A DNA stretch of 64,000 nt, from positions 1-64,000 of the forward strand of contig JAVTLE010000005.1 in the NCBI GenBank assembly GCA_033439295.1, read 5' to 3'. Of the stretch, positions 1 through 50,397 are shown piece after piece; position 1 is the stretch's first letter; each line of letters starts with the position of its first letter. This stretch comes from Deuterostichococcus epilithicus (lineage: Eukaryota > Chlorophyta > Trebouxiophyceae > Prasiolales > Stichococcaceae). The translations under genes were made by a program, and so were the position numbers. The notes under the pieces were generated by a model that ran no database searches, was not told where the DNA came from, and saw only the letters and a program-made list of their open reading frames with translations.

Positions 1-295
1 AAACCCTAAACCCTAAACCCTAAACCCTAAACCCTAAACCCTAAACCCTAAACCCTAAACCCTAAACCCTAAACCCTAAACCCTAAACCCTAAACCCTAA
101 ACCCTAAACCCTAAACCCTAAACCCTAAACCCTAAACCCTAAACCCTAAACCCTAAACACCCTAAACCCTAAACCCTAAACCCTAAACCCTAAACCCTAA
201 ACCCTAAACCCTAAACCCTAAACCCTAAACCCTAAACCCTAAACCCTAAACCCTAAATCCCTAAACCCTAAACTCCCTAAACCCTAAACCCTAAA
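1..295. repeat. Telomere, CCCTAAA tandem repeat
   Basis: An almost perfect array of about 41 CCCTAAA units, the Arabidopsis-type telomere repeat also used by Chlorella-type green algae. The C-rich strand reads 5' to 3' from base 1, as expected for a left chromosome end. Variant units occur near 155-162 (AAACACCC), 255-261 (AAATCCC) and 270-277 (AAACTCCC). The variants cluster toward the inner side, the usual pattern where old units escape telomerase turnover. Confidence 0.98.
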
Positions 296-325
296 AATCC
301 TCGGGCCGCTGTGGCTGGACTACTA

Positions 326-358
326 TTTAGGGTTTAGGGTTTAGGGTTTAGGGTTTAG
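326..358. repeat. Inverted telomere block (TTTAGGG)n
   Basis: Four TTTAGGG units plus a partial unit in the opposite orientation to the terminal array, separated from it by about 30 bases of unique sequence. The two arrays could pair as a fold-back hairpin. Inverted internal telomere repeats are typical scars of chromosome-end fusion or of telomere sequence added at a break. Confidence 0.93.
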
Positions 359-3084: not shown

Positions 3085-6000
3085 ATGCGTGTTGCAGGCT
3101 CAGTCCGCCCAAGCGCTCCCGGCAGCGGCCATGCACGGCAGCAGCCTGACCAGGTACAGCAGACCAGCAGCAAAAAGTACCGGCAGCTGCCAGGTGACGC
3201 AGCAGGAGGCGGCGATGTCTTGACAGAGCAGTACAGCGAGGCGCGCCGTCCAGCGGCAGCAAGGACACGGGCGCCTCGACAGGGCGCGCCTGCAGAGCCG
3301 CAGGCGTGGGGCCGCAGGCAGCCTAGAAAGTTTGGCGCTGTTGCTGCGGCACCCCCACAGGCCGGCCCGGCGCCTGCGGCCCTGGAGGCGCGCTGCCAGG
3401 ATGCTGACCTGGCACAGCTGCAGCGCCAGGTAAGTGCAGTTGCTTTTTGGGGTTGGTTAGACTGCTGTCAGAACGGATCAGACCAGGCGACGCTTGTGCC
3501 TGCTGAAGTGGAGATGTAACGTCACGGAACTACCATGCAGGCATGGCAGCTGAAACAGCGGCGTGACTCGGCAGAGGGACAGGTGAGCCTGCATTGCGGA
3601 GCAGCCCTGCGGTGCGAGCACGGAGCATTCAAGTGTGAAATTTGTCCTGACTCGGGCAACCTGCCGCCGCCAGGCTGCTGGCAGCGTTGAATGGCCGCAG
3701 GCTGGCCGCCCCCAGCGGGACTCTCTTGTGGCTCAGCTCCTGACCGTGGTTGAGTCCGTGGGTGAGCTTGAGCTGAGCTGGTGCTGCCTTGACACTGGCG
3801 TCATCTTTAGCAGGACAATCGGTCCCACCATGGGGTGCCATGGAGTACATGTGCTCTGTTTTCAGGGTCGAGCTTGGACTGCAAGAGCGCCTCTGTACTC
3901 CTCGAGAGTCTCGCTGCCTGTGCGTGGCGAGATGCAGCGTGCGCTGAAGCCATCATTAAGGTGTGCACAGTTCTCTGTTGTTGGGAGACATCCTGATTTC
4001 CTAATGTTTTGCGCATTGGTAAGTGCGTCTTGCTTTCTACACCAGCTGGCGCTGTCATGTGCGCAGGATTGGCGTTTTGCAAGCGTGCTCGACCGCATCA
4101 GGGCTGATCTGTTGAGCACCGCCGCGCCTGTGACGCTGGCGATGCTGCTCTGGAGTGGGTATATTAATGGATGAATAATTAATGACTTCAGTTTTGATGG
4201 CATCGTGCAAAAAAACCTGTGATTTTTCCGAATCATGGGCAGGTCGGCGCTTTGCATCAGCGAGTCAGCAACTGACACCATCGTGCAATGCATGGCTTGC
4301 AGCGGTGTGCGTGCTGGGCCGTGTGCCGCCAGCACACATGGCAGAGGGAGGTGGCCGAACCACGCGAGACAGCAGGTGGGGAGGTGCAGGTTGCAACTGT
4401 CCATTTGAGCGAAACAATTGGCAATCGCATTCGTTCCAGTGGAACCCTGCCTTTCTTGGCAAAACAAGCTGGACTGCGAGCTCATGAGATGCCCTGTTGT
4501 GCGTCTTTTGTAATGGGCTACCATCAGCGAAGCTCCTTGCAGATAGCATACTGTACCCTCTAACGTTGAACCCACCTCCCGCTCCCCCTGACGGTCATAC
4601 AGGCTGTGGGCGAGCCGCCTTGAGCTGCCGCCGCTGCAGCTGCTGGCAGGGCTGCCGGGGCACATGGCAGCACGCGGCAGCAACAGAGCCAGCTTGCCAG
4701 CTCGTACTTTGGAGGCCATGTCGGCACGCATCCAGCGAGACACGCTGGGCAGGCTGTCGCTGCGGGATGCGGCCGCCTTCGTTGAATTCATCCACATGTG
4801 CGCGATCCGGCTGCCCAGCGCCTGGATGTTCCCGGCCGCTTCTGTGCACGCTGTTCGTGAGGTGATCACAGCACCAGTGGCCAGCGCGACTCTCGTGAGT
4901 CAGCCTGGCTTGTCTATGCTACATTTTGGCACCAGTCAGAGCACCGTGAGCGAATTGGGGGCGCCTCTAAACAGTTCGCACGCTGCGCATCACCCGCAGT
5001 GAGCGGGGGCACTGCGGTGCAGAGGAGCTGTCGCTGTTGCTGGCCGCGCTTGGCACGCGGCGGGCGCTGCCGCCGCAGGCGCCGCGGGTGGTGGTGGACT
5101 TGCTGGACGCCATGCTCACGCACTTGGTACAGCTTTTAGCTTTTCTAGATTAAACAGTTTGCCTGCGGTGCTCTCAGAGCTGGACGGGAGAAAGCTCCAC
5201 TGACTTGCAGCAGCGGCTCCCCTGCATGCATCAGAGTGCGCTCACGCTCACGTGCCATTACAGGAGGAGTGCGCCGCCCTTTTCAGAGAAGCAAACCGCA
5301 AACACCGGCAGCCAGTCATCCAGAAGCTCTCACATGTGCGGGTCTGCGCATCAGGAGGCTGCCTTGGGCGGCGCCGCAGCGGCAGGTCTCCCATCTGCAG
5401 CGGCGGCTGCGGCGGCGGCGGTGCAGCTGCACCGCGCGCTGTGTGCGCTGCAGCAACTGCGCCACCAGCCGCAGCCGCGCCAGCTGCGCCGCCTGTGCAC
5501 GCTGCTGGACGCCCACTGCGCCGCCCTGGAGGTGCGCAATTCTGCAGGACCAGTGTCCGTTTCAGAAGCTGCAGCAATCGTCAAGCCTGCGCCTGTTCCC
5601 CCTGACGCGCGGTGAAGGAAGCAACCAGTCCAAGAAATCATGCCACTGCAGTCGTTTGATTCTCTAGTTCAACGCCCTCCCGGCTGTCGCAGGTGCCGCA
5701 CGAGGTGCTGAGTGCGTGTGCAGCGCTGGGCGTGCGGCCTGTGAGCTCGCAGCACGGCGGCGGCTTCATCGCGCACCTGGTCTCCACTTGTCGCGAACGG
5801 CTGCTGGACGCGACAAACTCGGGTCTGGCGCCCATCAATGCGGCCTGGGCACTGGCGGCAATGCGGGTGGGTCTGGGACCTGCGGCTGCCGGCCTCTCTG
5901 CAGCTGGCGTCAGCATCGGTGGCGCATGTGCGAGGATCCAGCCACTGCGAGTCACAGACTGGATGCGACAGCCTGGTGCCAGCAGCTCTCCTGATCAGAC

Positions 6001-7969: not shown

Positions 7970-9890
7970 TCATGCTTCCCTGGCAATCGGCAGCGGACCC
8001 TCTGCGCCCCTCACAGCAGCCAGCCAAAATTGCGCGAGGCCCGCCAGGGTCCAGGCTGGGCCGCTGCCACACACGAGCTCCTGGAACACCTCCCGAACTG
8101 CCTGCGCCTGGTGCACATGCCGAGGGCGGTGAGCCACAGGAGGCCAATGCACTTGGCAGAAGCATCAGCTGCTCGACTCGAGCAACCAGCAGTGCGTGGC
8201 AGCAGCTCGCATGGGACTGCTTGGTGGTGCAGGCGCATCCATGGCACTGGCACCAGCACTGGCACCAGCTGGATATCCAAGATCGGCACCTGAGCAGCGC
8301 CGGCGGGAGGAAACTCTGCTGAAGGCGCGGCCGCCGGGTACGCCGCACTCAGCCGCACCAGCATCACGCGCTGCGCGTCGCTGAGCTGCTGCGGCGCATC
8401 AGCTTCGTCGCGGCGGTCGCCGCCGGCGGACACCCGCACCAGCAGGCCGCCCGCGGCGGCACTCGCCGACAACACCTCCAGTCGCATGTCCTCTGACTGC
8501 GCCTACATGGATGCAAACAGCATTGTCTCAGGCATCCTCGTCGTGTGATGCAGAATACCCTACAGGCCCTGAGATCTGAGCTGGATCGCATGGCAACAGC
8601 ATCTGTCCTCCAGGGGGATGCTGGTGTCTGCGGCAGCAAACGTGTGGTTGGCCGGCGGACGCACAGTGTGAAGTCCTCAAGCGCAATCGGGAAGCAGGAA
8701 AGTCGCACCTCGAGGCATTCCGCCTGCACGGCAGCATGCAGGCGCTGTGACGCTTCCAACGCCGCAGGCGTCTCCACCTCGGCGGCCGCAGGCGCCGCCG
8801 TGGCGTCGGCACCGCCATCACCGCTGCGCAGCATCGCCTGAATAGCTGCCGTGCCTTCCCCCTCCACGAAGCACTCGTTCACAGACCTGCATGCGGCGCA
8901 GGCGGCACATCAACGCAGAAGGCGAGTCGACTCGTGCTATATACGTTGCAGCGAGTCAGCCTCACCCGCCCTGAGCTCTGACGGATACTGTGCAGATTCG
9001 ACAGGGCCTACACACCCGCGATTGCCGCCGAGGGGTGCAGGAGGGAGCACCTGGAGACGATCAGCGGCGGCGTCGCGGGCGGCTGAACGCCGCTCCCGTC
9101 GACCGCTGCGTCCGTGTCCGACGGCCTGGCGGCAGGCTGCAGCGACGCCAGCCAGGCTGCGGGCGGCGGCGGCGGCGGCGCCGNGCCGGCGTGCCAGAGG
9201 GCACGCCGCAGCTGCCCGGCCGCGGCGGATAAGTCCTTCTGTCGGCTGCGCTTGATGGCGTCCAGCAGCGCCTGCACAATGGAAACACCAGGGGGTGTTG
9301 TTTCGACGCTGGTCACGGTCCTCAAGATCGCCCATCCAGTGTCGGCGTTTGATTTCCATGGGCTGCCGCGACGGGGTGGAGAGCCCACGCTGGGGGCTGG
9401 CGCCGCTGCAGCACCCCATCGCACCTGAGCAGGCGTTGCTGGCGGCGGCGGCGGGCCGCCCGAAGCGGCGGCTGCGGCGTCGCCATGCAGCTTGACCTGC
9501 AGGCCTCCCAGCACGTCGTGGTCCTCAGGCGCGGCGACGACCGGCTGGCCTGGAACCTGCACCAGAAGAGAGTCGACCTCGCATTGGGCTGATGTTCTAA
9601 CGGCAGACGACATGCGCGATCATGGTGGGGGCCAAGACATGCCTGGGGCCCGAACAAGCCGCCCTGAGAGTCTCCAGCTGTCCTGCAGCCGAGCGCAGCT
9701 TGACGACCGACCGAGGGGGAGATGCCTGAGACTGCCGCCAACGAGAGCGCGAGCCACACTCTGGAAACAGGGCACGCTCGGATCAGACCTGCTGGAGTAC
9801 GTCAGCGCGCAGAGCCGCCGGCGGTAGTGCGTCGGGCTGCGCCTGCTGTGGCGGCTGGTGCAGCGGCTGCGCCAACACAGGTGCGCCTGG

Positions 9891-9933
<43 letters not shown>

Positions 9934-11350
9934 TCCTCCTGGGCTCGCTGCGGCTGCTGCTGCTGCTGCTGGGCTCGCTGCGCCTCCTGCCTGAATCGCT
10001 CCCTCCACCGCGCCTGCAGACACAGCAGCCCCCTGAGCTGCACGTCTGCGACGGCTGGGGCGGCTGCCGACGCGGCACCAACAGCATGCCGCGCTGTTGG
10101 TCGACCTTTGATAGACCAAGCGCTGCCCTGACGCTGCGCTGCAGGCGGCAGGCGGGAGGCGTGCCTGATGCAGCAGAAAGGTAGCACACCAGCTGCGGGC
10201 GCAGGCGGGGGATGTGGGCGTCAAGGTGCGCCCGGCACTGCTGCAGCAGCGCCAGGTCGGGCCGTATAGGCGACGGCTGGCCGCGCTTGATGCCCAGCAG
10301 CTTTGCGGGGGTGAGCAGCTTCTCCAGCATCGCCACCTGCGGCGGGCGGCCAGCCAGTCGAGAGAGTCTCGCGAAGTCCTGCCGTGGCGACTGCAGGCGC
10401 TGTGTGCAAGCGCGCGGCTGGCGATGCCACAGGCGCCCACGGCTGCAGGAACCGCCAACGAGGCCTCGGATGTCCCGTGCAGCAGCCGCATGCGCAGCAG
10501 ACACTGTGCGCTGTGTGCGTGGCACCTGGCCTGGCGGCGCCGAGGCGCCCTGCGACTTGTTCGTCCGCAGGATGGCCTGCACCACCAGCAGGTCGTGCAG
10601 GTACGTCTCCCGCAGCTGCGCCTGCAGCCGCCAGAAGTCCTCCTCCGCCGCCGCTGAATGCGCCTGTGCGGCGGCGAATGCAGGAGCTACCTCAGGATAA
10701 CCCATGGCGAGAGGCCCAGCTCTTTGATCGTGCCGTATGACATGTTGGTGCCAGGCTTCATGTGCGTGTCCTGCTGTGCCGCAGGCCTGGACCAGCCTGC
10801 GGCTGTGGCAGCCTGTAGGGGAGTGAAGATGAGCATGCAGGACGCAGTGGCACATCAATGATCGAGGAAAGCGCCTGCGGGCACTCGAGCAGCCCGCCGG
10901 CCGTGGAGGCAGAGCGGCACCTGCGCCGGCTGCGCCACGGTAGGGGTGATCACGGCGGGCTCCGTCGCGGGCCCGTCGCAGAAGAAGGACGCCATCTCGC
11001 TGAACATGGCCTCGTCCTCGCCGGCCAGCGGCGCCTCACCGGAGCCGAAAGGGTCGCCAACCAGCTGCGGCGGCTGGACCAGCTGCGGCGCTGGCAACAA
11101 TGGCTGCTGCTGCTGCTGGAGTTGCTGCTGGGGATGCTGTTGTTGCATCTGGTGCGGGTGCTGTGGGTGCTGCTGCGGCGGCTGCTGGTATGCCACCTGC
11201 TGCTGCAACTGCTGTTGTGGCCGAGGGCTGTAACCAGCCTGCTGAGGCATGTGCTGGTAAGCCATCTGCTGTAGCGGCACCTGATGCGAGTACGCCATCG
11301 ACTGGGGCGGCCGCAAAGGAGGCGGCTGCTGAGGGTACTGCGCTTGCGAA

Positions 11351-11389
<39 letters not shown>

Positions 11390-12147
11390 TGCTGCCGCTG
11401 CGCGTGAGCATACTGCAGGCTCTGCTGCTGCTGCTGCTGCTGCTGCTGCCGCAGCTGCTGCTGCTGCTGCGGTGCGGCCTGCACGAAGGCCTGCGGCTGC
11501 TGTGGCAGCGCCCACTGCTGCTGCTGCTGCTGCTGGGGCGTGGGCGCGTAGCCCACCGGCGCCGCCTGCATTGGCTGGGACGCCTGCATCAGGTGCTGCT
11601 GCTGCTGCAGCGGCGGCGCCAGCGGCTGTCCGCCCGGCTGCGGCCCCGGCGGCGGCGTGGCCCCCCCGCGCTGCGCTGCTATCCTCTTGTTGAGGCTCCT
11701 GACCTTTGCCTCCACCTTGTTGAGGTACTCATCCTGCGCGAGGAAAAAGTGACATGCTGCCATGCTGCCATGCTGCGCCAGGGGGGTCCTGCCGCCAGGC
11801 CCGAGCAGCATGCAGCAGCCTGACGCATTGGCATGGTAGTGTCCGGCATGACAGCACCCAAGCTATAGAAACGCAGCCGACCTGGTTGTTGCTGCACTGT
11901 GCAAAGATGCGGCCCTCCAGCTTGGCCACTGTGTCCGACACGTCCTGCGCCCCCAGCAGCGTCTGCAGCGTCTGCTGCCTGCAGTCAGAGAACCACGTGC
12001 GTCTGTCAGTCTTCCCAGCACGCAGTGGATCGGCGGTTCCTGTGCATGCGCGTGCGGGAGGGCATGCACAGCACAGCTAAGCAGAGGTGCGGCTCACAGG
12101 AACATGACGACTTGCTGCCGGTTCTCGTGGGTCACAGGCTGCGCCAT
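7970..12147 (-). CDS. MED15: Mediator subunit 15-like protein with KIX domain
   Basis: Resolved 5' exons are 12098-12147, 11882-11978, and one starting at 11733. Joined in phase they give a KIX domain at residues 1 to about 70: MAQPVTHENRQQVV, then DVSDTVAKLEGRIFAQC, then DEYLNKVEAKVRSLNKRI. This matches the three-helix KIX of plant and fungal MED15 and of CBP/p300. A long glutamine-rich region follows, encoded by CAG repeats at about 11100-11610 and again at 9885-9975. Further exons (about 10550-10690 and 10190-10350) are helical. The C-terminal part has LVRLSAAYPAAAPSAEF, then VREVFQELV and LAQFWLAAVRG before the stop at 7970-7972, resembling the proline/tyrosine loop and terminal helices of the MED15 C-terminal domain. 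MED15 is a tail-module subunit that links activators to RNA polymerase II. One N lies at 9184 in an exon-like GC tract. KIX identification is firm; calling it MED15 rather than another KIX coactivator rests on the C-terminus. Confidence 0.83.
9885..9975 (-). repeat. CAG trinucleotide tract (polyglutamine)
   Basis: On the plus strand this is a run of CTG/CTC triplets. Read on the minus strand in the MED15-like frame it encodes a run of about 13 glutamines followed by shorter Gln blocks with Arg, Ala and Glu. Long open frames on the plus strand here are shadows of the repeat. Confidence 0.85.
11096..11610 (-). repeat. Glutamine-rich coding repeat of MED15-like gene
   Basis: Several runs of 5 to 12 CAG codons, interrupted by Pro, Tyr, Met and His, in the exon following the KIX domain. 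Glutamine-rich linkers are the norm after the KIX domain of MED15. The tract length is prone to change by slippage and could vary between strains. Confidence 0.85.
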
Positions 12148-12837: not shown

Positions 12838-15800
12838 ATGCCGTGCCTGAAGCTGTATGGCAGGCGATGGGGCATCGCGGACGACGACATCATCTTCGCT
12901 GCGACGCCATGGCTGTTCCACCTCGTGTGGATCATCTTGCTACCCATCCTGCTGCAGGTGCTTTGCCGGTCCAGCGTGCTGCGCCTGGTCAACCCACCAA
13001 TGATGCCGTCAGCCTTCCTGACATGCTATATGACATCGTCACATGCTGCATTGCCCAAGCCAACGCGCTCGCCATGCAGACGGTCACGCCGCCGCCAGGG
13101 TGCGAGCGCGATGAGTACCGGCTGGCGGTCATCGCACTGTTCGTGCTCTTTATCGTGGCGCTGCTGGAGGAATCTGCCATCGTCCTCGTCGCCCTGAGAG
13201 GTGTGCACACAAGCAATGGCTGTGCACTACTTCCTTCTGTATTGCACAAGACTTGCGCATGCTCAAGCCGATACAACAGGTTCAACATGCTGCCGGCTGG
13301 GCGCAGGCTCAATCTTCGACGCACACAAGCGGCGCCTGGTGCAACCGCTGCTGTACCTGCGCACAGCGTCGCTCGTCACCGAGACCGCCTTCCTCAGTGA
13401 GCCACCTCTTCTTGCCGCAGTTGCACTTGACCTTCTCGTGCAGTTCCTATAAGCCTCGTCTCCAGCCATGCGCTAGTGTGGCTGCAACCCGCGCTAGACT
13501 CGCTTTGCGCGCTGAGGGCTGATGCATCAACGGTGCTTTCTGCACACAGTATATGCGACTGTCATCGTCATGCGGCCTGGGGAGCGGTGCACGAAGGGCT
13601 CAGGCGACCCGGTCTGGGACCCGCCGCCCGTCGTTCAGGTCGGCCGCTGCTGTGACGCGTGCTGGGCATCCTGCTGCACCGGCTCAGCTGCATCCAACTT
13701 CTTCGGGCACCCAAAGCGCTGCTGTGAGGCGCCACATCTCACGCGGCAGACGCCCCCGCCTGCAGGCCTGGATCTGGAGCACGTGGGTCACCGTCGGCCT
13801 GACGCTCATCTCCATGGTGCGACCTCCTCTTGCATTTGGTCACCACCGGGTCGGGTGCTGACTGCCCCTGAGGCCAGGCGCAAGCTACAGATTGGTTCTG
13901 CTTGCGCTTTGCCCTGGCCCGCCCCCCAGTCGTCCTGCGACGGCTTCCAGCTGCCGAGTGCTGCCACACAGGCGGCTACCTTCAAGTTCTGGCCGGAGAT
14001 GGCGAAGGAGAAGTCGTGGGAGCACCGTGTGCGCCTCGTGTCCGCCCTGTGCTGCTGCTCCAGCCGCGTCTCCAAGCCACGCGACGATGGCGAGACGACG
14101 CCGCTTGCTCGCATGGCCCTCGTCTTCGCTTCGGTGACTCCCCGGACCTTCCCCCTGGGCATCATGGCATGCCACTCGCCCGCTGCTCTTCTGGCCTTTC
14201 GCTGCACCGCCATAGCAGGACTGCAAAAAGCTGAAGCGGGATTGGCGTTGCCGCCGTGCTCGGCTGTGCAGGAAGCGATGCTTGTATGATTTGTCAGCCG
14301 TCTGATGCAGATGTTCGGCTTCGTGGATATGACGGCATCAGACTTCCTGGCGGCGTTCCTGCTTGCCGCACAGCTGCAGCGCTGCCGCCGCAAGTCAGCC
14401 CTGCAGGCGAGCAGAGGTTTCGCAGCAGGCTGTGCATGTGTGGGCGACTCTGGTGCTTCAGCAGCGTTGCTCTGCAGTGCTGAGAAGAGATTGGATTGCC
14501 AATGCGTCTCAGTCCTTGAACATGCCCGTGCATACCATCGTGAGGACTGCCGCCTCTGAATACGCTGGCCACTGCAGCGCTTGCCCGACACAAGTGTGCG
14601 CCGCCTGCCGCCGCCTGCATCATGTCCCGACAGGTTTCGCACACCCTGCAGCACCTGGCGGAGGACGCAGACACCATCGACGCGGAGGCGGGCGCGCTGT
14701 CGCCCGCCGGCAGCGAGGCGCTGTCGACGTTCTCGTCCGACATCCGCAGCAGCCGCCGCCGCATGACCACCGGCGGCATCGCCGACCCCGAAGGTTGGTG
14801 CAGCAGCCGAACAACTTGCCTGAAGGACTGGCTAGTGGGTGCACTTTACTGACAGAGCAGCCCTGAAATCTTTGCCTGTGCAGCAGGATTGTGTCCAACT
14901 GTCTGCTCGAGATCTTTCCGGCACTCGCTGCGGCAACAACATGGGGGGATTGGTGCCCGCATGGAGTTTCTGTGAGGCATCACACGGTCGCATGCTGCGA
15001 CACGCCAACTGCCTCCATTGCGCGCAGCTGGGGACCTGCTGCTGCGCCTGCACAGCCGCAGCCAGCGTCCACGCCCGCCCCGCCACACCTCCAGCGAGGC
15101 AGAGCTGCCAGCCGGCACCGGAAGCGGGCGGCGCAGCGTGCAAACAGCTGGGCTGCCGGCACCGCGGCGCGCAACATCTGAGCCTGGCAGGTCGCGCCTC
15201 GGACCCGGCGATTCAGCAGGCAGTGCTGCGAACGGCGACGCTGCAGGGAGCAGCGCCAGCTGCGAAGCCCAGGGTGGTGAGCCGCCAGCCGGGCTGCTCA
15301 GCAGCGGCGGCGGCAGCGGCAGCAGCGGTGGCAGCAGCGGTGGCAATGGCGGCGGCCACAGCAGAAGCATTGGCAGCGGTGCTGCGGAATCCCCCTTCGC
15401 AGCAGAGCAGCAGCAGCAGCAGCAGCAGCAGCCGCAGCCGGCTGCAGCGGCCATGCACCGGGGCGGCCCCGAGACCTCGCGGGCGTGGCGGAAGCGTACA
15501 GAGGTGTATCTCGAGCAAGAGCTGCTCGACCGGCGGCGCGTCGAGGTGCGCAGGGGGATCTGGTGTCCCCAGAACCTCTGCACGGATGCATGGCACGTCA
15601 GGCAGCCATTCCAGTGGGCCTGTTGGTCCGCTGCAACCGTTGGCATATGGACCCCACATGCTGGGACTGCTGACAGTGTGCCTGCACCGCTGCCCGCCGC
15701 GCCCTCGACGTCAAGCGCTGTCCGGCTGCAGGGGCAGCCGCCGGCGAGGGACCTGGCGGCTGAGGGGCGCCGCCTGCTGGCGTTTGCCGAGGCGGAAGCG

Positions 15801-46118: not shown

Positions 46119-49100
46119 CTAGGCGTTCTGCTTTGCGCCAGCGAACCGCTCAGACTTTCCGTACATGTACTCCTCGAAGCGGCGCACCTGGAAAGCAGCA
46201 CAGAGCACGGTCAGTGGGGTGTCTCCATGCACCAAAATGCCCAGGATGCTGGCTGTGTGCAGCAGCGCAAATGACCCATCAGGCCCTCGGTTGAGTTCTC
46301 AGCATACGGATTCACTGTCCGAGCCGTTGTATGCCGTGCGCACCTCGCCAATGCTGCCGTAGCACACCTGCGTGCGCTGGTCGTATGCCTGCGGGGCCAG
46401 GGAGGGGCACCACAGCTCAGGGCGCCAGCAAAACTGCACATGCGCTGCACCATCGGCTGGACGGCGATCTAGCGCCCAAGGCTCAGCCGGGCAGCGTGGA
46501 CCTGAGCTTCACGGTCTCGCAGCACGAGCAGGGCGCCGGCGTTGCACATCACAACGTCTGAAGATCGGCGGCTTGTCTTGCAGAGCATGCCCGGCCGGCA
46601 ATGGGCGGCAAAGGCGGCCGATGCAGGCGCACCTCAATGGGCACGTCCAGGGCGCTCTGCTGCTTGCCGTCGGCACTGGAGTAGCCGCCTGCCTTCTCCA
46701 CCTGCGGGCACCGAGAGGCAGGGATCGTCATCAACCGGGAATGGCGTGGTCGGAAACGGCACATGTTTGCACGTTGCAAAGACACATCCATGAATGCACG
46801 GACACAGCAGAGGACGCAGCACCATGCATGACGCAAAGACATAAGGGTTTGCACGCACAAGCACATACACTCAGAGAGGCGAGGCCAGGTGGGAGGACGG
46901 GCGGGCGCACCAGCAGGCCGAGGGGCGCGACCTCGAAGAGGATGCGCAACTTGGCCTTGGTGGACGGAGAGGTCACGTTGGAGAAGACGCCCTTCTCCTT
47001 CACGATGATCTGGAACACGTCCGGCACCTGCCGAGGAAAAAACAAAAAGAGTTGGAAAGAAAATGGGAACACACACATGTGAATTCCCTGATTTTCATAT
47101 GATTTTCATATTAATTTCATATTCACGCTGTCAAGACGGTAGACTCACCATGCCTCCGGTGTACCGCAGCGTGTACTTCTCGCCGATCCAGTAGCTGACC
47201 AGCTTCTCGTACTGCAGTCGGCATGGAATAGTACGTCAGTGCAGCGCAGATGGTTGCTGGGAGCTGACATGGCCCGGGTGGGCGCGTGCCGCAAGCCTCT
47301 TGGCAGATGGCAGAAGCCACGCAGGCACAGCATGTATACATAGGCATGGACACATACCACACACTGCTTTCAGGCATCAGCATGAAACAAGTGTGGTTTA
47401 TAAGTTGTCGATTTCGTTCGGAATACAAGGATATATAATCATTGGCTGACCTCGGGGTTGTCAAAGGTGGCCCTCAGGTTGCCCTGCAAGCAGGAGGGAA
47501 GCATTTCAGGGATTTTGCTCCGTAGTTGTTCACAGCTAATTCAGTACGGCTTTCTCGCACAAACGCTCAGCAAACCCACCGGGGAGAACATTTTCCCCTC
47601 GCCAATCTCCGTGGTTTCCTTCACGTGAAGCCACTTGCCTGCGGGAGGGGATGGAATCGTTGTTCCTCAGTTTCCGGTGTTGACTTGGGTGCAAGAGCTG
47701 CCGTGTGTGTGGGTGCTACTCCTTGCATGTGCTGCTGAAACAGCACATGAAATTGAATGTCTCTCGGAGCTGCGCATGATGCTGGGACGGCAATGATGCC
47801 CGGGAGCGCCAGCGCAGCCTGTCACGTCTGCTTTGGGGACCGCATCACACGCACCAGGATTGGGGCGCATCCAGGGTTTTTGGTACAGTTTCATGTAATC
47901 TCTGAAAATGAGAGCCAGCATTGGGCACTCACCGTCGTCCTGCAGCAGGAACTCGTGGCAGCCGGGCGCGTCCTTGAGAGCGATGACGAAGCAGGTGCGG
48001 GGGCCGAAGACGCCCATGCCGGCCGCCGCCTGGTCGCGCCCTGTGATACCCTTGAGCTTGTCGCCGGGCCACACGCCAAAGATGGTGCCCACCTGCGCAA
48101 TTTGAGGGTAGGGTCTGGGGCCGGAGGATCGCCATGCTGGCGGCGTCACGCCCCTGGGAGCAGGGCGGCTCCATGTCAGGCGTGCACTCATCCACAGCAG
48201 CGCTCCGGCAGTCGGGAGCCGGCAGCCCCGCCTGTCGCCGACGGCATGGCGGCTGCCGCGCACTTCGCTCCACACCCAGCCTTGCCGCAGTCGAGGCGAT
48301 GATCAGGTTCCCAAGGCGGCTGTGGCCCCAGTGGCCCCACGCTGGCCCAGACGTGGACTCGGCAATGCTCAGACCCCGGAGTTGATGTCCTCAGTGGAAG
48401 AGAAGGCATTCAGCAGACCGAAGGCCCCAAAGAGGTCGGATGATCCACCGGCGACACATCCAACAGTGAGCGAAGTGTCAGTCTGCGCGCTGTAGAGTTG
48501 GTGGTCAGCACAAAGACGCTGTCAAGGAGGCCGAGATCCTTTAGGAAAGAACCGAGATGAAACAGCAACTCAGCTGCCGCACCGTGAAGGTGCTGGCCCC
48601 AGGATGCTCCCCGCCCTCGAGGGGGTCAAAGGCCCCGGAAATGAGTTACAGCTTGAAAAGAAACCAGAGGTGACAGCAGAGACGCCGCACCGTGAAGTTG
48701 GTGTCCACGATGGAGGAGCCATCCAGAGGGTCAAACGCGACGGAGAAGCCCTCGCCCTCCATGTCGACCGGCTCCGGCACCTCCTCGCTGCACGCGTACT
48801 TGCACACGTGCTGCAGCAGCAAGGGTAGATAGGCGTCAGGTTTAAGTTTGACATTCAGGGTGTAGAGCGCGAATAGCCCTCCATGTCCACCGGCTCCGGC
48901 ACCTCCTCGCTGCAGGCATACTTGCACACATGCTGCAGTGTGGAACCAAAGGCTTTTAGGGCTCTGGGTTCAGGTTTCTCAGCGTGTGAGCGGCCAGATA
49001 TGTTGGAGGCCTGCCGGCTCCGGCAGGCCTCGCTGCACATGTCCTCTAACCCTCTGAAGCGGGTTTCATGTTTGCAGCACTCACGCCTGCCGCAAAGACG

Positions 49101-50397
49101 CACAGACTCTGCCTGTGTTCAAACGGTGAAGGCTCACAGCTGGACCGCTCCCCGTTCAAACGTACTGGGATGCCGCCCCGGCTTGATTTCCCTGTCGGCT
49201 TCTTGGCAGCCCCACACCATCTGGTGCAAAGACGCACGTGCAGGAGATCGCCCTGACCGGCCTCCTCCTACCGTACTCCAGACAGATGGTATAACGGACA
49301 ACCCACCGAGAACTTGAGGGCCTCGAACAGCAGCTTGTCGGCCAGCAGGTCGACCGCCAGCTGCTCATCGCCGAAGGAGTTGACGCAGCTCATGGCGCTG
49401 CAGCTCGCCGTGCGCACCTGCCCAGCAAGACAGGGGCACATCTGGGCTGCGGCAGTAGCAGAGGCTTGTCGGCGCAAACTGGATGAGTTTCGCAGATGCC
49501 AACATACTCTCCATTTTCCGGCTGCCGCTGCTGCACATGGTTCCGTGCTGCTGCAAGCGCACCTTGAAGGCAATGGTGCGGATGGCCTCCGACATGCTCA
49601 TCATCAGCTGGCGCAGCTTGGCGTCGTCCGTGGCGCTGACCAGGAATTCCTCAAGGCTGTCGCCCACCTGTGCACACAGTGGGGGACATTTGGCAGCTGC
49701 ACCATCAGGTAGCAGTTCGGCGGGCGCCCGCGTCTGCCAGGCTCCAATACCGTGTGATCCGCTGTGAACCACTCGTCCGCGTTGCTGCCACAAGATGCTT
49801 CCGGCCGGAAGCAGGTTCGACCCATGCAGTCCCAGCTGCAGCAGCACCGCCACCGTGCAAATGTGCGCCCGGCCCGCCGCCGGCAGCAGAGCGATGGCCT
49901 CGCGGCTCGCCACACTCAGTCTGATCAGGCCATGCGTTCGACGCCTCCTGCTACCCGCCAGCGCTCCCCAGGTGTCAGCGGCCGGCTGCACGTAGGATAA
50001 GATGTTTCGGTAGTGGATGTCCCACCTTGGCCTGCGTCGTCAGCCTCTGCCGGCTGGCAGCGCGGCTGCCCTGCGAGCGGCATGTCAGGGCCGCTGCCGG
50101 GGCTGCGAAGCTGGACGACTTCGAGGACAGGGCCGCAACGCTGCCGGTCAGGGGCGCCCGGAACGCAGCCTGCAGTGTAAAAACGCATGATCAGGGACTA
50201 CGCTGGATTCACAGATCGGTCAGGAGCCATGCTGATGTACAAGAAATGTATGACCGGCTCACTGCAATCGGCAAGATGCATGTCGGTGGCTGCAAGCGAT
50301 TGGTAAGTCGCACCTGAGGCGCCTGCCGGGAGGGGCGGGCCGCCGACACGGCGCGGGCCTGGACCTGAGGGGTCTGGAGCATCATGGTGCTGGCCAT
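46119..50397 (-). CDS. SBP: Sedoheptulose-1,7-bisphosphatase, chloroplastic
   Basis: This Calvin-cycle enzyme removes the C1 phosphate of sedoheptulose-1,7-bisphosphate in the stroma. ATG 50397; exon 1 (50314-50397) and exon 2 (about 50050-50168, with [18 protein letters not shown]) form a Ser/Ala/Arg-rich transit peptide. Then come [20 protein letters not shown] (49561-49670), [20 protein letters not shown] (49310-49418), [20 protein letters not shown] with [17 protein letters not shown] (about 48690-48813), and [12 protein letters not shown] and [16 protein letters not shown] (47935-48090). These are followed by [20 protein letters not shown] (47580-47637), [10 protein letters not shown] (about 47452-47484), [19 protein letters not shown] (47148-47213), [20 protein letters not shown] (46910-47030), [13 protein letters not shown] (46632-46703), [13 protein letters not shown] (46345-46387) and [14 protein letters not shown] to the stop at 46119-46121. 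FDPLDGSS is the metal/phosphate-binding signature. Cys-x4-Cys before VNSFGDEQ matches the thioredoxin-regulated cysteines, so light activation is expected. All key motifs are intact. Confidence 0.96.
48876..48938 (-). repeat. Duplicate of the 5' part of an SBPase exon, upstream of the real exon
   Basis: 63 bases match the real exon start (48754-48816) at 59 of 63 positions. The copy begins with the same CTGCAG acceptor and encodes the same [18 protein letters not shown]. All four differences are third-position and synonymous (His, Tyr, Ala, Val codons). After the shared GAGGGC the copy diverges at once and has no good donor close by, so it looks like an intronic partial duplicate. Confidence 0.85.

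Follow-up and report, generated by a model that had tools for sequence, protein, structure and literature searches.

In Deuterostichococcus epilithicus, the start of exon 5 of the gene for sedoheptulose-1,7-bisphosphatase (SBPase) is present twice, once at the head of the exon and once, in the same direction, inside intron 4. The gene lies on the minus strand of contig JAVTLE010000005.1 (assembly GCA_033439295.1), whose positions 1 to 64,000 were analyzed here and are called the window. Judging by its sequence, the intronic copy (A', with the real exon start called A) is probably a dead by-product of a small, local, direct-orientation duplication at the acceptor edge of exon 5. Similar pairs recur in samples of the genome, and they raise the possibility, which we hold tentatively, that this alga has an active process that copies pieces of 30 to 60 nucleotides (nt) from exon edges, in direct orientation, about 75 to 140 nt into the adjacent intron.

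The SBPase gene and the copy in intron 4

The modelled exons 1 to 10 join into a continuous protein, 161 central residues of which match Protein Data Bank entry 7b2o (E = 1.9e-94), which we take to be from Chlamydomonas; the joined protein also matches 5iz3, an entry named sedoheptulose-1,7-bisphosphatase (E = 2.6e-88). A protein search of the alga's own genome (46.8 Mb in 21 contigs) found this one SBPase gene and three weaker places, probably FBPases. At 496 and 598 nt, introns 4 and 5 exceed the other seven modelled introns in length. The features of the gene used below are as follows.

46911..50397, minus strand: SBPase gene, exons 1 to 10 as modelled (the model stops at exon 10, which is not the 3' end)
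49307..49417, minus strand: exon 4 (gene model)
49014-49038, minus strand: A'', a decayed remnant of the exon 5 start, identical to it in 23 of 26 aligned columns
48876..48938, minus strand: A', CTGCAG plus the first 57 nt of exon 5, inside intron 4 (59 of 63 identical)
48857-48855, minus strand: TGA that would be met in frame, six codons past the copy, if the acceptor of A' were used and read through
48817..48875, minus strand: 59-nt spacer that separates A' from the real acceptor and aligns weakly with the 59 nt above A'
48811..48816, minus strand: CTGCAG, the real acceptor of exon 5 (gene model)
48691..48810, minus strand: exon 5, 120 nt, phase 0-0, 40 residues (gene model and match to 5iz3)
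48546..48639, minus strand: B', a decayed, gapped copy of the exon 5 end and about 34 nt of intron 5 (local alignment)
47933..48092, minus strand: exon 6 (gene model)

A self-search of the window pairs 48754-48816 with 48876-48938 (E = 2.8e-20) at a start-to-start distance of 122 nt, in agreement with the preliminary description, and a 133-nt query (48684-48816) finds only these two places among the best-scored candidates in the genome. That description was also right that CTGCAG is kept in both copies and that all four differences are synonymous, each being a silent third-position change. Its 63-base exon start is a real repeat, of which only 57 nt are exonic; the other 6 nt (CTGCAG) belong to the intron, and the exon opens with a His codon.

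The exon body continues only from the downstream copy, and A' has no second exon half. A' is not a copy of the whole exon with both splice sites; it holds 57 of the 120 exon bases and the acceptor only, which rules out whole-exon duplication. A processed, mRNA-derived copy is also ruled out, as A' carries CTGCAG and B' extends into the intron. Insertion of an element with a target-site duplication was rejected because the spacer (48811-48886 as query) matches only itself in the genome and the gap sequences of different loci are unrelated (best score 25, apart from those within L017 and L022, two of the genome stretches described below). The self-only match of the spacer, together with the presence at numerous loci of pairs that have decayed to very different extents, makes it very improbable that A' is an artefact of the assembly.

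Further remnants of exon 5

When each of the ten modelled exons was compared with its neighbouring introns, exon 5 alone had a high-scoring copy (score 94 upstream and 24 downstream, against at most 22 for the others). Local alignments between exon 5 and the two introns beside it also yielded A'' and B', which go beyond what had been described before. A'' lies 123 nt upstream of A', and its score was reached in none of 10,000 dinucleotide shuffles. A'' is partly in a hairpin and overlaps a perfect inverted repeat of 12 nt (window 49006-49031), the loop of which measures 2 nt. B' lies 105 to 108 nt downstream and keeps the donor, TTCACG|GTGCGGC; its score was reached in 1 of 10,000 shuffles, and it was also picked up by the lag scan described below.

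Silent changes and splicing prospects of A'

Four silent changes out of four had been read as a hint of protein-level selection. The hint is weak. Over the rate settings tried, p ranges from 0.0099 to 0.066 when constraint acts on the real exon and the copy evolves freely, and from 0.0012 to 0.013 when all changes are placed in the free copy. In comparison, 11 other ungapped pairs show 17 silent against 39 non-silent changes over 141 codons (frames set by eye; one pair has no changes, one copy contains a stop, and two pairs share one exon). We give the 4:0 ratio little weight because the SBPase pair was chosen for that trait. All four differences fall at CpGs of the real exon, each removing a CpG in A', so that the exon counts 7 and the copy 3 (p = 0.0025 for random positions); in the 11 other pairs, 9 of 56 changes are at CpGs. 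We infer from these comparisons that the silent changes reflect constraint on the real exon, CpG loss, and luck.

The preliminary description also stated that the copy lacks a nearby donor. There is no GT at the end of A' and no good donor nearby, but two weak in-frame internal GTs exist among the six between the copied and the real acceptor. GAG|GTGCCG at 48902 would close a mini-exon of 30 nt, 92 nt before the real acceptor, and CCG|GTGGAC at 48890 one of 42 nt, 80 nt before it; compared with the closest of the ten donors in the gene model, they have 1 and 2 mismatches, respectively, and the product would repeat 10 or 14 residues. We doubt such a mini-exon because similar GTs also occur in the real exon, where the gene model leaves them unused. 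The normal mRNA presumably skips A' and uses the downstream acceptor, and a role of A' as a decoy acceptor is possible.

In all, it seems unlikely that A' is or was functional, be it as an alternative exon or mini-exon or as a decoy ("poison") acceptor that would lower SBPase output through unproductive splicing. The kept acceptor, the 19 codons without an amino acid change, the in-frame stop soon after the copy, and the two internal GTs speak for such a function. Against it stand the absence of a donor at the copy end and of the second exon half, the unused GTs at or close to the corresponding places of the real exon, the free evolution of the 11 comparable pairs, and p values of only 0.01 to 0.07.

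Local direct pairs across the genome

We scanned sixteen 10-kb stretches of the genome (handles beginning with L) together with the window. A BLAST scan (E = 1e-3; 220 kb cut into 10-kb blocks) gave 12 direct pairs at 60 to 200 nt, 5 at 200 to 500 nt, 4 at 1 to 3 kb, and 2 beyond, while the inverted pairs in the same four classes numbered 1 (at 79 nt), 1, 0, and 0, plus three palindromes. A lag scan (fixed 22-nt window, 19 matches, lags of 30 to 1,000) of 223.6 kb gave 34 direct pairs, 5 of them below 60 nt, 21 at 60 to 200 nt, and 8 above; its complement control gave no pairs, and an inverted scan under identical settings, covering 18 loci and 60 kb of the window, gave 4, all at distances of at least 321 nt. 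This lag scan had first been run with a strict complexity filter, which kept 12 pairs and missed A' and was then relaxed. With BLAST relaxed to a score of 32, there were 21 direct against 0 inverted pairs at 60 to 200 nt and 3 against 4 at 300 to 500 nt, at a complexity cut of 0.85 that excludes A' itself (complexity 0.82).

Four held-out stretches (40 kb) added 10 direct pairs, 6 of them at 60 to 200 nt, and 100 kb of Escherichia coli K-12 gave 3, two of them in this range. Per 100 kb, this corresponds to 9.4 pairs at 60 to 200 nt in the sample, 15 in the held-out stretches, and 2 in E. coli, a comparison that checks the method and not the biology, as E. coli lacks such introns. In the combined 263.6 kb, 27 direct pairs lie at 69 to 187 nt, 22 of them at 74 to 141 nt. 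Scaled to 46.8 Mb, the 27 pairs would extrapolate to about 4,800, a figure that counts pairs which are not exon copies too.

Many of the pairs look like exon pieces. By eye, acceptor-side pieces lie upstream of their exon in L011 9541, L012 7427, L013 886, L021 1078, and L032 8280, and donor-side pieces downstream of it in L012 9767, L015 398, L017 9084, and L032 8509, the layout that selection for an intact exon body predicts; the splice site itself is not retained in the L011 and L017 copies. Among ten open reading frames (ORFs) at doubled places of the first sample, six match Pfam at E 0.05 and four have no match; NTP_transf_2 and Glyco_transf_90 are over the Pfam cut-off, and PP2C, Helicase_C, PAP_assoc, and rhaM are under it. 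A genome-wide search of the Helicase_C family revealed no clear doubled exon among its 129 matches; so short a copy would score too low in such a search.

The densest case seen is a strumpellin gene (L032:5050-8840), in which several exons have direct copies 86 to 163 nt away and three ORFs match strumpellin over the Pfam cut-off. The 10 kb of L032 hold nine direct BLAST rows under 1,000 nt, two of them within one array. One copy in this gene is identical over 42 nt, there is one three-unit array, and one exon is flanked, like SBPase exon 5, by a copy of its acceptor side upstream and of its donor side downstream.

Not every pair in these counts stems from an exon. L018 4019 is an ordinary tandem repeat, a single repeat accounts for both L022 1956 and L022 9750, and the pairs of L026 look compositionally simple.

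How the copies may have arisen

In the course of events that we propose, a break-repair or replication error would set down a second copy of a 30- to 60-nt piece, in the same direction, at a distance of about 110 nt; those copies that spare the exon body and land in an intron would survive and then decay freely. For the class as a whole, we favor short direct copying during repair, while for A' itself either patch copying or contiguous tandem duplication may apply; both kinds of event may occur.

Several points weigh against A' as a dead, freely decaying copy and against its extension to the genome. A' may be spliced after all, and in-frame internal donors exist; exon identity is proven for few of the pairs; L032 alone supplies five of the six held-out pairs at 60 to 200 nt, and half of the four held-out stretches have none in this range. 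The distances of 123 nt from A'' to A' and of 122 nt from A' to A are in register, and there is a colinear alignment between the 59-nt tails that lie above A and A' (p = 0.0117 and 0.0087 in a comparison with 1,417 null tails; p = 0.0074 by shuffles). Both observations suggest an older contiguous tandem array at this locus. If such an array is real, the exon part of A' is more alike than a free copy should be.

These last points bear on a contiguous tandem duplication of a unit of about 122 nt (the 59-nt intron tail, the acceptor, and the exon start), perhaps in two rounds and with a rapid loss of likeness in the intron part, of the type described for the potato RdRp gene (see below), an explanation that we regard as possible without preferring it. 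It also agrees with B', which spans intron as well as exon over its 94 nt, with a 72% array of 187 columns at L032 8494-8663/8607-8789, and with z values above 4 in 3 of 38 flank tests (SBPase, L012 7427, and L023 2127). The flank likeness of L012 7427 is, however, a mere continuation into its exon, and a tail p value of about 0.01 is not rare among 38 tests. Next to 12 pairs, ungapped identity over the adjoining 30 nt averages 0.26, which is the chance level (L013 886 is an exception with 16 and 13 of 30, and two gapped pairs were scored ungapped), and the A'' tails show no alignment to those of A or A'. Two pairs with identical copies, L032 8280 (42/42) and L023 2127 (31/31), have no flank homology end to end, with a 17-column local match beside the latter, and their intervening 44 and 89 nt match neither flank.

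Gene conversion from the real exon could have refreshed an old copy, keeping the exon parts alike while the introns diverge. The exon part is indeed 94% alike beside tails that are barely alignable, but this requires the weak tail homology to be real, and the other pairs are clearly decaying; we rate it as quite improbable.

Known systems and meaning

Boundary-crossing duplications, break-repair duplications, and unannotated duplicated exons are already known; the recurring genome pattern extends the earlier account of A'. In the boundary-crossing tandem genomic duplication of the potato RdRp gene (Ma, Lan, and Niu, 2016, PMC4974935), sequence that used to be exonic has come to lie within an intron, as has the direct, nearby copy of acceptor and exon start met here. 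There, a new intron was formed, the major part of which is a direct duplicate, whereas here an old intron seems to have grown; the likeness of the SBPase intron tails is marginal, and similar pairs recur in our genome samples. Tandem exon duplications and mutually exclusive exons share with A' an exon-like copy beside its parent, and unannotated duplicated exons have been reported among them (Ivanov and Pervouchine, 2022, PMC9013439); A' differs in being half an exon, with no end donor and a stop on read-through. The duplications made at breaks (Schimmel et al., 2021, PMC8355091) are likewise short, local, and direct, but are described as tandem, while the two identical pairs found here have 44 and 89 nt between their copies.

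The main text of the Coccomyxa genome paper (PMC3446292) has no word beginning with "duplicat," and an intron review (PMC3488318) holds nothing on exon-edge copies under NC64A or tandem duplication. Our literature search found no dense, direction-biased exon-edge copies in green algae, with most subscription papers outside its reach. A genome paper on Chlorella NC64A may mention exon-like repeats in introns.

While A' as a single copy is minor, the wider pattern bears on intron growth and on new splice sites and introns. If the process exists, by extrapolation thousands of copies would have lengthened introns and seeded decoy splice sites, and the direct bias and preferred spacing would call for a mechanism that sets a length of its own, such as repair synthesis that jumps back a set distance or templating by the nascent transcript. 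Thousands of such copies of varying age, some of them unchanged from their source, would make the size, direction, and decay of these events directly measurable. Gene finders could mistake such copies for exons.

Other repeats

L023:1036-1364 contains three copies of an apparent last coding exon, two of them beyond its stop codon. L013:5164-5332 and 5631-5789 hold a longer direct copy that falls into two blocks, at a distance of about 460 nt; one of the copies has an exon-like frame, whose ORF has no Pfam match. At L022:1956-2171 and 9750-9965, 7.8 kb apart, the same repeat pair occurs with nearly identical sequence between, as would be seen in a mobile or duplicated element. The contig starts with a repeat array in 7-nt steps (window 1-358), which is probably telomeric, and a family of related short repeats is found on both strands at window positions 9892-9991, 11061-11608, and 15281-15456.
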